Shown piece by piece: positions 14,783-60,432 of a stretch of DNA of 64,000 bases (within the stretch, counting starts at the first letter, position 1; each line of letters opens with the position of its first letter). This stretch comes from Chitinophagaceae bacterium (GTDB taxonomy: Bacteria > Bacteroidota > Bacteroidia > Chitinophagales > Chitinophagaceae): contig CANCVE010000005.1 in the NCBI GenBank assembly GCA_947381435.1, forward strand, positions 33,474 through 97,473, given 5' to 3'. A program made the translations under genes and the position numbers. Below the pieces are notes generated by a model. It ran no database searches. It worked only from the letters and a program-made list of their open reading frames with translations, and had not been told where the DNA came from.

Positions 14783-14972
14783 TGTGTTTAATAAATATTC
14801 CTTATTAATTAATTTTGGTTACAACTTGGTGTTTTTACACAAGGAAAACTATAATTTGTTTTCAATATCTGCGCCTTTGCTTTTTGAAACCCCTTTTTTA
14901 TTAAGTGATAAAAAGTGCAAAATCTTGTGGTTAACCCTAAAATCCCTACTCTTCTAAGCAAAATATTTCAAT

Positions 14973-15161
14973 TTGGCAATCGGATTGTCCATTTTGTCAA
15001 TAATATAGTCAATGGAGTCAATCGGATTGTCAATGGGGTCAATATTATTGACAAACTCAGCAATATTATTGTCAATTAGCTCAATATTATGGTCAAATTT
15101 GTCAATCAGTTTGTATAATTTGTCAATCAGATTGCCAATTGAATCAATCGGATTGTCAATT
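14973..15161. repeat. 21-bp degenerate tandem array A (9 units)
   Basis: ttggcaatcggattgtccatt|ttgtcaataatatagtcaatg|gagtcaatcggattgtcaatg|gggtcaatattattgacaaac|tcagcaatattattgtcaatt|agctcaatattatggtcaaat|ttgtcaatcagtttgtataat|ttgtcaatcagattgccaatt|gaatcaatcggattgtcaatt; no indels. Confidence 0.95.
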
Positions 15162-15180
15162 GGTCTATTAAGAGATTTGT

Positions 15181-30241: not shown

Positions 30242-30375
30242 TAAGGCGCTTCTTGGAACTTATTTATGATTTTAAAGTGTCCGTCTTCACTGTTTTTCCT
30301 TTTTCAATTTTGGTTTTTATATCAGATTGCAAATCATCGCCTCACAGATACTTAAATATAGTATCCCAAACCTCA

Positions 30376-30564
30376 TTTTCTTTGTAACGAAAATGGTTTT
30401 TCGTATCAATAAAGCAATTTTTCGTTTCAATTAAATGGTTTTCTTTATAAAGAAAATGACTTTTCGTTTCGATTAAATGATTTTTCGTATCAATTAAACG
30501 ACTTTCTTTATAACGAAAATGGATTTTCGTTTCAATTAAACAGTTTTCTTACCAAAGAAAACTT
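30376..30564. repeat. 21-bp degenerate tandem array B (9 units)
   Basis: ttttctttgtaacgaaaatgg|tttttcgtatcaataaagcaa|tttttcgtttcaattaaatgg|ttttctttataaagaaaatga|cttttcgtttcgattaaatga|tttttcgtatcaattaaacga|ctttctttataacgaaaatgg|attttcgtttcaattaaacag|ttttcttaccaaagaaaactt. Confidence 0.95.
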
Positions 30565-37260: not shown

Positions 37261-37698
37261 TTAGCCAATCTCTTTTTCCATGTGATAATGAGGGATACTA
37301 ACCTCCACAAATTCATCTCCCACTATGTGATACCCAAGTTTTAGGTAGAACCCTTCAACAGATTTTCGGGCATGAAGAACAATTTTAGTAATGCCCATAC
37401 ACTTCGCTACCTCCTCTGCATACTCTATCAGCGACCTTCCTACTCCACTGCCTTGCTGCTCCTTTGCAACAGCCATTTGTCGAAGTTGTAAAGTGTGTTC
37501 ATCTACTGAGGATAATACACTACATCCTAATAAATCATCTCCCGAATCATGATAGCATCCTAATAGTATATCATATTCTTCGGCGGCCAATTGCTCTGCA
37601 GTAAAATTCAGTCCAAGTGGTTTTCTAAGTACCTCATAGCGTAAATCTATCATCTGCTGGTGCTGTTTACTATTAAAATCTATCACGGCATACTTCAT
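37261..37698 (-). CDS. GNAT family N-acetyltransferase
   Basis: ORF 145 aa; LRQMAVAKEQQGSGVGRSLIEYAEEVAKCMG. Confidence 0.9.
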   Translation of the reverse strand: MKYAVIDFNSKQHQQMIDLRYEVLRKPLGLNFTAEQLAAEEYDILLGCYHDSGDDLLGCSVLSSVDEHTLQLRQMAVAKEQQGSGVGRSLIEYAEEVAKCMGITKIVLHARKSVEGFYLKLGYHIVGDEFVEVSIPHYHMEKEIG

Positions 37699-38002: not shown

Positions 38003-38099
38003 ATTGAACTGATTATCGAAGGACACAATCCTTTTTTAATCCTTATAATCACACAAATCCTAGTTTAGACAATGCCCCCAAACCTTCCATTTACCTTCA

Positions 38100-38330
38100 A
38101 AAAGTAAAACACTGCCAAGTTTCATCAAAAGATGGTCGTGTTTTTCATAAACTCACCCATGTTTCGAGAAAACATGGCAGTGTTTTTAATAAACTCGGTA
38201 ATTTTTTGGGCAAACATGGTCAACTTTAACAAAAACTCACCCGTGTTTCTTATAAACACTGCCAAGTTTCTTAAAAAGAAGGTCATGTTTCTCAAAAACT
38301 TGGCAGTGTTTTGTAAAAACATGACCATCT
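38100..38330. repeat. 21-bp degenerate tandem array C (11 units)
   Basis: aaaagtaaaacactgccaagt|ttcatcaaaagatggtcgtgt|ttttcataaactcacccatgt|ttcgagaaaacatggcagtgt|ttttaataaactcggtaattt|tttgggcaaacatggtcaact|ttaacaaaaactcacccgtgt|ttcttataaacactgccaagt|ttcttaaaaagaaggtcatgt|ttctcaaaaacttggcagtgt|tttgtaaaaacatgaccatct. Confidence 0.95.
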
Positions 38331-38369
38331 TCTGGTTTTGGCAGTAAATCTCGACTTTAGGCTCCCCAC

Positions 38370-39293
38370 TTACTTCCCACTATTCAAATCGGTGCTGATT
38401 GTTTTATTATCTAATGAACCCCTATAACGTTTAATGGCATTAATGATAGATTGTACAATTTGGGTTTGTCCGGCTGGGCTATTTAGATAATCTTCTTCTT
38501 CAGGATTGGAGATATAACCCGTTTCTACCAATACTGCCGGCATTGCTACCGCTTGCAATACCCAAATACCCACTTGTCTTTGCAAAGCATCGCGATTAAT
38601 GCGGCCTGCTTTTGCAAACTCTTGCTGGATGGTAAGCGCCAAGTAGGCACTTCTGTCAAAGTATTGACGTGTTTTTAAGTTGATGTAATTCATCTTCTCT
38701 GGCGATTCTACATCGAAGCCATCTACCGATTTTGCAGTATTACTATCCAAGTATAAACTCTGATTTTCGCGCATGGCTATCAGCTTCAAATCATTTCTAT
38801 GCGCTCCCCATATATAGGTTTCCGTTCCTTTTGCAGGATTTGGTGTGCTGTAAGTGTGGTATTCTTTTACCTGACGTGTATGCTTTTTTCGTCCCTTGCG
38901 GTAGGTTTCGGTTTTATAACCAACAAATTCGCTGCGTCTTATTGGGTCGGCACTATTGCAGTGTATGCACACAAACAAATCGCCTTTGGCCTGATTGGCA
39001 ATCTTGGCTTTTTCTACAGGCGAATCAAAAACATCGGTTCTTCTGGTTAATACTATTTCAATATCTGGAAGTTGATCTTTCATCATTTCTTCCAGTTTTA
39101 AGGATATTGCCAACGATATGTCTTTCTCGTTAGAGTACTTTCCTGGAGCACCACTATCATGTCCTCCATGACCAGCATCTATCACAATTCGGCGTAATTT
39201 CGATTTCTGAGTGGCATCTTTTGTAGAAAAGGAAGTTAAAAGCAATACACAAAATCCAAGCATGTATAGCAGTGTATTTTTCTTTATCATCAT
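38370..39293 (-). CDS. N-acetylmuramoyl-L-alanine amidase
   Basis: ORF 307 aa; RIVIDAGHGGHDSGAPGKYSNEKDISLAISLKL, FVCIHCNSAD, AVLVETGYISNPEEEDYL. Confidence 0.95.
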   Translation of the reverse strand: MMIKKNTLLYMLGFCVLLLTSFSTKDATQKSKLRRIVIDAGHGGHDSGAPGKYSNEKDISLAISLKLEEMMKDQLPDIEIVLTRRTDVFDSPVEKAKIANQAKGDLFVCIHCNSADPIRRSEFVGYKTETYRKGRKKHTRQVKEYHTYSTPNPAKGTETYIWGAHRNDLKLIAMRENQSLYLDSNTAKSVDGFDVESPEKMNYINLKTRQYFDRSAYLALTIQQEFAKAGRINRDALQRQVGIWVLQAVAMPAVLVETGYISNPEEEDYLNSPAGQTQIVQSIINAIKRYRGSLDNKTISTDLNSGK

Positions 39294-39375
39294 GTCTATA
39301 AAAGTTAAAGTATTTAATATTATGCCTTTCTTTAGGCAATAGTTAGTTTACCGACTATTTTTGCCACCTCACAAT

Positions 39376-42111
39376 ATGAAGGAACTGTGTAAAAATAAAG
39401 TAAAAACATTTTGGGCGTATACTGCTTGGATAAGTTTGTTCGTAATTGTGTTGCAATTAACAGCTAGTGGATTGCCCTCATTAATTCATTCGTCTAAAGA
39501 ATATTTATCTACTGATACAATTCCGAAAAGAAACAATACGCCTTCACTAAAAAAGAATACCCCTTTACCAATACCCGCGCAAGCTGCAATAGTAGACACT
39601 TCTTTGCGAAATAATAAAGATTCCATTATAAAGATTGATACCCTCAATATTTCGAAAGATAGTTTAGATGCCCCCATCAGTTACGAAGCATCAGACTCTG
39701 GCGTACTTATTATTCCTACAAAAGAATTTACGCTGTATGGCAAGGCAAAGGTGTCTAATAAGGATGTAAACCTAGATGCGGCTACCATAAAATACAATTC
39801 TGGAACACAATTGGTGCAGGCTTACGGTGCAAAAGACACAACAGGCAATCCGTATAGTAAACCTAATTTGACGCAAGGAGCAACTAAAACCATCAGCGAT
39901 TCTATTCTTTTCAGTCTAAAAACATTAAAAGGTCTTACTAAGAATACTTATTTGCAAGACGGTGAAATGTATGTGAATGCACAGGTGCTTAAAAAAGTAA
40001 ATAAAACAGATTATTATGGCTATAGGGCTAGGTTTACTACTTGCAACCTCGACACACCACACTTTGCCTTTAGGGCACGAAAAATAAAGATGGTTACCAA
40101 TAAGCTAGCCGTTACTGGCCCTACTACACCAGAAATAGAAGGAGTACCCTTGCCTATTGGGATACCTTTTGGCATTTTTCCGCTAGCACAAGGTCGACAT
40201 TCGGGTGTGTTGCCCCCTGCCTTTGCCACGAGCGAAAACTATGGTTTAGGACTAGAAGGCTTAGGCTATTATAAGGTAGTTAATGATAATCTGGATGTTA
40301 CCCTTAGAAGCGATATCTACTCTTATGGAGGATGGAGGGTGACTGCAAGCCCCAAATATTTAAAAAGATACCGATACCAAGGTAATCTGGATGTAACGGT
40401 GCAACACACAAAATCGTTGAATGCAGTGGGATATGGCGGATTTGTTGAGGATGAGTTTACAACCAGCAATTCGTACATGATAAACTGGAACCATAACCAA
40501 GATCAGCGTGTAAGACCAGGAACTAGCTTTGGAGCTAACGTGCATTTTGGTAGCACTCGTTTCAATCAAAATGTGCAGAATAATCCTTTTATAACTTATA
40601 ATAACCAATTAAGCTCTACCGTTAATTACTCAAAGAATTTTAAAGACAAGGCAAATGTGGCTTTGTCATTTAATCATAGCCAAAATAGTATAACACATTT
40701 AGTAAACTTAATATTGCCTAGTGTTTCTGGTAGTGTGGTAACATTTTACCCTTTTCAGCGTAAGGAAATGGTGGGTACGCCAAAGTGGTACGAGAAGCTA
40801 GGCATTGGCTATAGCGGTAGCCTTACTAATGAACTTGCATTTTACGATACTGCTTTTAGCCTAAAAAGAATGCTTGATACCTTACAATGGGGTGCCACAC
40901 ATAGTATTCCTATCTCCTTATCGCTACCTTCTTTAGGCCCTGTACAAATATCGCCAAGTGTTTCTTTTTCGCACAAATGGTATGGGCAATCTATACTTAG
41001 AAAATGGGACGATGCCAACAATAAAATAGATACTGTTATTACCAAAGGTTTCTATACTGGCAGCCAGATGAGCTTTGGGGTTAGTGCCAATACACGTGTG
41101 TTTGGTACAGTAAACTTTGGTAAGAAAAGTAATATTGTGGCAATAAGACACGAGATGAGGCCAAGCATTGGCTTTAGCTATACGCCAGACTTATCGAGCC
41201 AAAACTTTTATACCGTAAAGGTTGACACCATAAATAAGGTTGGGCACTATATGCGTTACTCTAAGTTTGATGGTGTTACACCGGGTGCTTATGGCGAAGG
41301 AAACTCTGGTGCGGTTAGCTTTGGTATAGACAATACGCTAGAGATGAAGGTGAAGGATAGTAAAGATACCACAAAAGAGGATGCAACTAAAAAAGTAAAA
41401 CTAATAGATGGGTTTGGGTTTAGTGGATCGTATAACTTAATGGCGGATAGCTTTGCGCTAAGTAATATATCCTTCAACTTTAGGAGTACTTTGTTTAAAG
41501 TGGTGAATATAACTTCCGGCTTTACACTTGATCCTTATGCCGTAGATAAATATGGTTATAGACTAAAGAATTATTATTGGACTGGGAAAGACTTAAACTT
41601 TGGCCGTATTACCAATGGAAACATTGCCTTATCTACTTCTTTTAAAAGCAAAACCAAGGATGGTAAAGCAGGAAAAGACAGTATCCCTTTAGATCCATTT
41701 ATGACACCCGAAGAGCAACAACAACAATTGCAGTATACACGAAGTAATCCGCAGGAGTTTACAGATTTCAATATTCCGTGGTCTGTAACGCTAGGTTATT
41801 CCCTCAATTTCTCCAAGCAATTAATGTCTAACTACGTTTATAAGAACGTTTTTACATCTAGTTTAAATTTTAATGGAGACTTCAACCTGACGGAGAAATG
41901 GAAGGTTGGGGGATCTGGCAACTACGACTTTAATGAAAATAAGGTTCAGTACCTAAGTATGTTTATTACCCGCGAAATGCATTGCTGGCAGTTGGCCATA
42001 AATATTACCCCGATAGGCCCTTCTCGATCCTTCAACATTACCATCAACCCCAAGGCGGGCATTCTTAGAGATTTAAAGATTAATAGAAGCAGGTACTTTT
42101 CTAGCAATTAG
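39376..42111 (+). CDS. LptD/OstA-like outer membrane protein
   Basis: ORF 916 aa from 39361 (first codon TTG); ATG at 39376 more likely; OstA-like KEFTLYGKAKVSNKDVNLDAATIKYNS then long beta-barrel. Confidence 0.82.
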   Translation: MKELCKNKVKTFWAYTAWISLFVIVLQLTASGLPSLIHSSKEYLSTDTIPKRNNTPSLKKNTPLPIPAQAAIVDTSLRNNKDSIIKIDTLNISKDSLDAPISYEASDSGVLIIPTKEFTLYGKAKVSNKDVNLDAATIKYNSGTQLVQAYGAKDTTGNPYSKPNLTQGATKTISDSILFSLKTLKGLTKNTYLQDGEMYVNAQVLKKVNKTDYYGYRARFTTCNLDTPHFAFRARKIKMVTNKLAVTGPTTPEIEGVPLPIGIPFGIFPLAQGRHSGVLPPAFATSENYGLGLEGLGYYKVVNDNLDVTLRSDIYSYGGWRVTASPKYLKRYRYQGNLDVTVQHTKSLNAVGYGGFVEDEFTTSNSYMINWNHNQDQRVRPGTSFGANVHFGSTRFNQNVQNNPFITYNNQLSSTVNYSKNFKDKANVALSFNHSQNSITHLVNLILPSVSGSVVTFYPFQRKEMVGTPKWYEKLGIGYSGSLTNELAFYDTAFSLKRMLDTLQWGATHSIPISLSLPSLGPVQISPSVSFSHKWYGQSILRKWDDANNKIDTVITKGFYTGSQMSFGVSANTRVFGTVNFGKKSNIVAIRHEMRPSIGFSYTPDLSSQNFYTVKVDTINKVGHYMRYSKFDGVTPGAYGEGNSGAVSFGIDNTLEMKVKDSKDTTKEDATKKVKLIDGFGFSGSYNLMADSFALSNISFNFRSTLFKVVNITSGFTLDPYAVDKYGYRLKNYYWTGKDLNFGRITNGNIALSTSFKSKTKDGKAGKDSIPLDPFMTPEEQQQQLQYTRSNPQEFTDFNIPWSVTLGYSLNFSKQLMSNYVYKNVFTSSLNFNGDFNLTEKWKVGGSGNYDFNENKVQYLSMFITREMHCWQLAINITPIGPSRSFNITINPKAGILRDLKINRSRYFSSN

Positions 42112-42147: not shown

Positions 42148-42378
42148 TTGAGTTGACATTAGTAATACATCCGTTGACTAGATTATTGACTCCTGATGCA
42201 ATACTATTGCTTCCATTGACTAGATTATTGCCTCACGAAGCAATATTATTGCTTCCATTGACTAATTTATTGCCTCTAAAATCAATACTATAGCTTCCGT
42301 TGACTAAGTTTTTGCCTCGCGAGACAATAATATTGCTTACGTTGACTATATTATTGCTTCGCGAGGCGATAATAGTTC
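42148..42378. repeat. 21-bp degenerate tandem array D (11 units, alternating X/Y types)
   Basis: ttgagttgacattagtaatac|atccgttgactagattattga|ctcctgatgcaatactattgc|ttccattgactagattattgc|ctcacgaagcaatattattgc|ttccattgactaatttattgc|ctctaaaatcaatactatagc|ttccgttgactaagtttttgc|ctcgcgagacaataatattgc|ttacgttgactatattattgc|ttcgcgaggcgataatagttc. Confidence 0.95.
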
Positions 42379-42390
42379 ATTACGCTAGAT

Positions 42391-60345: not shown

Positions 60346-60422
60346 AGTCGAAAGTCGAAAGTTAAAAGTAAGTAGCGTAATTATAATTGGAACAATTTAC
60401 TTTCAACTTTCGACTTTCAACT
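60346..60422. repeat. Imperfect inverted repeat built from cgaaagt heptamers
   Basis: agtcgaaagtcgaaagttaaaagtaa (60346-60371) versus ttactttcaactttcgactttcaact (60397-60422), 24/26 complementary. Confidence 0.75.
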
Positions 60423-60432
60423 TTCCGCTTAT

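Follow-up and report, generated by a model that had tools for sequence, protein, structure and literature searches.

A 21-bp intergenic array with mirrored arms and exchangeable cores, one of a class of arrays in a Chitinophagaceae genus

Genes and arrays in the window

The window, that is, the whole stretch of DNA analysed, covers 64,000 nucleotides on contig C5 of a Chitinophagaceae genome (G000) and encodes SusC/RagA, LptD_2 and T9SS sorting domains, as in Bacteroidota. Array C lies between an amidase gene and an acetyltransferase gene (Table 1). Three more arrays of the same class, A, B and D, are also intergenic and have a period of 21, the palindromic unit differing from one array to the next. 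The amidase-LptD pair (window 38367-42110) is kept throughout the genus, and gene order shifts at its ends, which hold arrays C and D; arrays may coincide with synteny breakpoints. In the congener G003, contig C197 (L195) terminates next to the amidase gene; its end is a near-perfect palindrome, ~58 bp long, around AAAGTTTAAACTTT, which could be an assembly fold-back. The sequence AAAGTTTAAACTTT is also the core of a G000 array (L076, 15455-15658).

Table 1. Arrays and neighbouring genes, in window coordinates
Feature	Coordinates	Strand	Description
Array A	14961..15165	.	Intergenic; 21-nt units; CAAT...ATTG dyads
Array B	30375..30563	.	21/42/63-nt units; TTTTCNTT...AANGAAAA dyads; related arrays on contigs C88 and C17
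GNAT acetyltransferase	37261..37698	-	Gene across array C from the amidase
Leader of dispersed element	38077..38106	.	CCCCAAACC...CTTCAAAAAGTA; common to the C23 copy and partly to C99; outside flanks unrelated
Array C	38107..38337	.	Eleven exact 21-nt units, AAAC-N8-GTTT-N5
Trailer	38338..38348	.	TTGGCAGTAAA; also kept in the G003 ortholog as GGTTTTGGCAGTAAAA
N-acetylmuramoyl-L-alanine amidase (Amidase_3)	38370..39293	-	Part of conserved amidase-LptD block
LptD_2 gene	39361-42111		Forms the conserved block with the amidase gene; block flanked by arrays C and D
Array D	42170..42380	.	21/42-nt units; GCAATANTATTGC dyads; far end of the amidase-LptD block

Anatomy of array C

A first-pass annotation, made from the letters alone, had placed a modular array here, and the array is found at that place in the register given in Table 1, with a partial twelfth unit at 38338-38345. 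The modular build of constant and variable parts holds, but the proposed split into an 11-nt constant and a 10-nt variable half does not: the constant part consists of two mirrored 4-nt arms (AAAC and GTTT), and the variable part of an 8-nt core and a 5-nt linker. From unit 1 to unit 11 the cores are ACTGCCAA, ATGGTCGT, TCACCCAT, ATGGCAGT, TCGGTAAT, ATGGTCAA, TCACCCGT, ACTGCCAA, AAGGTCAT, TTGGCAGT and ATGACCAT, nearly all of which read NNGG-NNNN once set in one common orientation. Because the cores differ, TRF detects the array only in part (38244-38328).

The likeness of units 1 and 8 that had been pointed out extends to an identical 16-mer (AAACACTGCCAAGTTT), of which unit 10 carries the exact reverse complement, closer than the near match described before. 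Unit 2 and the reverse-complemented unit 11 share 14 of 16 positions, and units 3-4 read CATGTTT-CGAG-AAAACATG, both in line with the same annotation. Its broader claim that cores are reused in both orientations is supported by seven reverse-complement core pairs matching at 7/8 or better, where column shuffles give 1.9 (P = 0.001) and free shuffles 0.02, and by two exact pairs against 0.22 (P = 0.02). At a threshold of 6/8 or better the reverse-complement core pairs are not above column shuffles, so that the excess is one of near-exact reuse. Units 10-11 together with the trailer repeat units 1-2 imperfectly in inverted orientation and may be MITE-like ends. Units 1-2 pair imperfectly with unit 11 and the trailer, but so would any units of an array with this mirror symmetry.

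Dispersed copies and replacement of cores

Array C is one copy of a scattered intergenic repeat of ~270 bases. A copy on contig C23 of the same genome shows 95% identity over 272 bp (window 38077-38348) between unrelated flanks, another on contig C99 shows 78%, and the search of 12 congeners yielded three copies in G003 and one weak match in G001. Like a MITE, the element has multiple dispersed intergenic copies with common boundaries and unrelated flanks (C5 against C23; the C99 and G003 copies). For this family neither a target-site duplication nor a clean empty site was shown, and orthologs of the amidase block adjoin a different gene on the other side. Phages had been named as a place to look for matching modules; nothing similar to array C was found in phage or plasmid collections, and an origin from either was rejected on that ground.

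The G003 copy on contig C61 is orthologous to the C23 copy. On one side, homology extends from unit 1 across the array into the next gene (80% amino-acid identity); on the other side it ends at unit 1. The ends of the array are retained in this ortholog, and its interior consists of alternating AGTTAACT and TCACCCAT cores. Between the C5 and C23 copies there are 10 substitutions, none of them in the arms. Between C5 and C99 there are 54, distributed as 4/88 in the arms, 28/88 in the cores and 22/55 in the linkers, so that the arms have changed far less than core and linker together (4/88 versus 50/143, P = 2×10−8). Both pairs align unit for unit without net change in length, in a draft genome of 231 contigs whose assembly may have compressed array lengths. 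Whole cores have been exchanged between C5 and C99, from ACTGCCAA to ATCCAACT in unit 8 and from ATGGTCAA to TTGGCAGT, the core of unit 10, in unit 6; in C99 unit 9 the core is ACGACCAT, which reverse-complements exactly to ATGGTCGT, the core of unit 2. The first-pass annotation had set reshuffling of modules against mere point-mutation drift, and the C5 and C99 copies and the G003 ortholog agree with the former. Module turnover between copies of array C is real: whole cores are replaced while arms and length stay nearly constant. Inversion is a plausible route by which cores are flipped, but it is not proven because the cores themselves are partly palindromic.

A genome-wide class of 21-bp arrays

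Array C had been treated as a single case, but it is one member of a genome-wide class. In the ~0.8 Mb of G000 surveyed, 67 arrays are intergenic and one lies in an ORF. Their TRF periods are 21 (53 rows), 42 (33), 63 (13) and 84 (10), with a few each at 20, 22, 41, 43, 44, 64, 82 and 85; the merging step selected near-multiples of 21, but the unselected list holds just a handful of other periods (28, 66, 71). The mean autocorrelation of the arrays is 0.59 at lag 21, 0.67 at lag 42 and 0.57 at lag 63, against 0.22-0.35 at the remaining lags from 8 to 66, where the highest value is at 41. Unit sequences are unlike between most arrays, and a good number of arrays belong to dispersed families. 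Dyad symmetry exceeds that of column shuffles (P < 0.05) in 21 of 60 arrays, and about two thirds have no significant dyad. In 10 pairs of homologous arrays, 14 indels accompany 416 substitutions, whereas ordinary intergenic DNA has 62 indels for 735 substitutions (P = 0.002), a difference that is supporting rather than conclusive, as the rates come from unlike comparisons (paralogs versus an alignment with G005).

Arrays are found in tandem (34), divergent (15) and convergent (11) gene contexts, without bias relative to all gaps (219/73/62), and are thus not tied to the 3′ ends of transcripts. A gene 3′-end or terminator element, which the four arrays of the window had suggested, was ruled out by these counts. 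Phasing of A-tracts at 10.5 bp is weak over the arrays (z 1.1 for A/T, 2.9 for AA/TT), and harmonics of 7 and 21 bp are at least as clear; the 7-nt harmonic in A/T content reaches z 3.7. Genomes of the genus also carry many dispersed copies of heptamer arrays of the AAGTCGT/AAGTCAA type (L009 5430-5640; L056, L057, L073 and L076; window 60399-60425), 21 being three heptamers. Arrays of period 14, a multiple of 7 and not of 21, are found in the congener G009 (L086 7969-8112 and 11137-11276).

Phylogenetic range and turnover of array sites

Congeners bear the 21-nt class as well, with seven arrays in 120 kb of G005, three of the 21-nt type in 80 kb of G007 and three in 60 kb of G001. Among other genera of the family, ~0.48 Mb sampled contained a single 21-nt array (G033), compared with ~40 predicted from the density in G000. 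The class is frequent in the genus and nearly absent from the other family genera sampled. Beside the amidase gene, the 21-nt array of G010 is not the one seen in G000, and no array is present in G005, G006, G007 or G011. At the site orthologous to array A, the array of G005 is again another one, its periods lying near 20-21 and 41-42, and G011 has just 51 nt. Orthologous array sites turn over fast.

The exact three-unit AAAC-N8-GTTT scaffold is also found in records from Methylococcaceae, Sphingobacterium, Planctomycetaceae and other Bacteroidetes. Several Methylococcaceae/Methylococcales MAGs (L118-L149) have AAAC-N8-GTTT at 21-nt spacing in the form of AAACAAG..CTTGTTT arrays, and a lake Bacteroidetes MAG (G066) carries several unrelated core families on the AAAC-N8-GTTT scaffold at the same spacing.

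Possible origin and function

That arms and spacing are kept while the rest is replaced fits information held in double-stranded DNA. We tentatively favor, with somewhat less than even confidence, the reading that array C represents one copy of a MITE-like intergenic element, short and non-coding, the minisatellite body of which acts as double-stranded DNA with putative half-sites every two turns; we infer that double-stranded DNA is the unit of function. The mirrored arms would be half-sites for a putative dimeric protein that binds or copies DNA and that would sit on one face of the helix at every second turn, 21 bp being two helical turns. The core would be a spacer that is not read, free to drift and to be overwritten by neighbouring units. 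Cores could be flipped by template switching at the mirrored arms, and in-register slippage combined with template switching could account for both reuse and flipping. Against this stands the unlikeness of most arrays of one genome in unit sequence, about two thirds of them having no significant dyad; given such diversity, no single sequence-specific protein could read the whole class. No candidate binder of the arrays was found.

Amplification and spread without function would yield much of the same picture, and a neutral minisatellite shaped by a mutational bias towards 21 bp is a close rival, nearly as likely as the reading in which array C acts as double-stranded sites. A clade-specific mutational process may make intergenic tandem duplications of 21 bp, an explanation given a little over one chance in three. 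Slippage, conversion and quasi-palindrome template switching may then homogenise, flip or replace units, with recombination scattering some arrays, and we rate this second part as we do the first. Such a process agrees with a period common to most arrays despite their different units, with lags 42 and 63 as strong as 21 (as expected from in-register slippage), with the occupation of all gene contexts in background proportions, and with the fast turnover by which relatives have a different array or none at orthologous sites. However, such a process would not easily keep the period at 21 with a shortage of indels, nor hold the arms constant amid changing cores (P = 2×10−8, as above), unless selection or an enzyme sensitive to spacing were at work.

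A bolder and rather unlikely possibility is that the genus has a dedicated enzyme or DNA-binding protein that gauges two helical turns and makes and maintains 21-bp intergenic arrays of almost any sequence. If so, each genome would contain hundreds of phased lattices, with a chromosomal role in, for example, nucleoid architecture, silencing or recombination, and array C would be an old, diversified member.

It is very unlikely that array C is an RNA element, transcribed and either folded into hairpins or cut at 21-nt steps. The array comes after the amidase gene on the same strand, and the folds of both strands are much more stable than those of dinucleotide shuffles (z -8.2 and -9.6). However, shuffles of unit order fold equally well or better (P 0.53-0.94), which indicates that the long hairpins are a consequence of the mirror symmetry of the scaffold, and column shuffles fold similarly in five of six tests (P 0.09-0.68), the exception being the plus strand of C99 (P 0.01). 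Mismatches in the dyad arrays, scored on the same strand as the upstream gene, comprise 43 G.T and 41 A.C, with no strand bias of the kind that tolerates G.U, and so give no sign of RNA pairing. In addition, divergent intergenic regions hold arrays equally, and the window has no Rfam match. The idea of an array built for alternative hairpins is not borne out by the unit-order shuffles or by the balance of G.T and A.C.

We give as little weight to a REP/BIME element mobilised by a Y1 (RAYT) transposase. The units are palindromic, intergenic and dispersed, and G000 has Y1_Tnp genes (7 matches), but array C units carry no GTAG or CGTC tag. Over all arrays GTAG is not enriched (58 versus 75 expected), and the excess of CGTC (93 versus 47) is due to a few arrays. 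Y1_Tnp genes do not correlate with arrays: they are about as common in relatives without arrays, and some congeners with arrays nearly lack them (no match in G009, one in G010). Least credible of all is a small coiled or heptad-repeat protein, 21 nt being seven codons: ORFs of 67 and 71 aa do span array C, open on both strands and with regular xxxFxxN heptads, but substitutions between copies favour no codon position (14/19/20), most of them are non-synonymous whatever the frame, TGATGA stops break the minus frame in C5, the open frames of array C have no Pfam match, and other arrays are full of stops.

Comparison with known systems

Bacterial minisatellites are usually of assorted unit lengths, or form one family per species. 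That nearly all longer intergenic tandem arrays here keep the period 21 whatever their sequence points to a ruler, mutational or protein-based, set by the geometry of the DNA helix. None of the literature searched describes such a 21-nt class from Bacteroidetes, though this does not prove that there is none.

Array C resembles a CRISPR array in its GTTT...AAAC words and in the alternation of constant and variable parts. However, CRISPR arrays have near-identical repeats and unique spacers of ~25-40 nt, whereas array C has a 21-nt period and 8-nt cores that recur within it in both orientations, and a CRISPR-like array was ruled out by this recurrence. With REP/BIME elements array C shares short intergenic palindromes in both orientations, but these elements are tagged with GTAG or CGTC, whereas array C is a tagless, strict 21-bp tandem lattice of a class without bias to gene 3′ ends (PMC3733652). 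Direct heptamer repeats of the TAACTGA type, known from Beggiatoaceae, Cyanobacteria and some Bacteroidetes, are likewise lineage-patchy intergenic tandem repeats, and heptamer arrays occur in this genus too, but their unit is 7 nt and non-palindromic, and in Beggiatoaceae they lie upstream of start codons (PMC4679880).

The nearest published relative in kind, though neither in sequence nor in period, is BrickBuilt, a MITE-borne 23-nt minisatellite of Porphyromonas gingivalis that forms one sequence family of 19 copies (PMC4596501). Both are dispersed intergenic tandem repeats of Bacteroidota without spacers, with leader and tail flanks, conserved and variable halves in the unit and long predicted stem-loops (PMC4596501). 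BrickBuilt has a period of 23 and a longer leader and tail, whereas the unit of array C is 21 nt; unlike BrickBuilt, the arrays described here comprise many families on one period, with mirrored arms and with cores in both orientations (PMC4596501). Array C is useful in that its copies represent several stages of divergence within one genome and a congener, so that the positions that are held (arms and spacing) and those that are swapped (cores) can be read directly.
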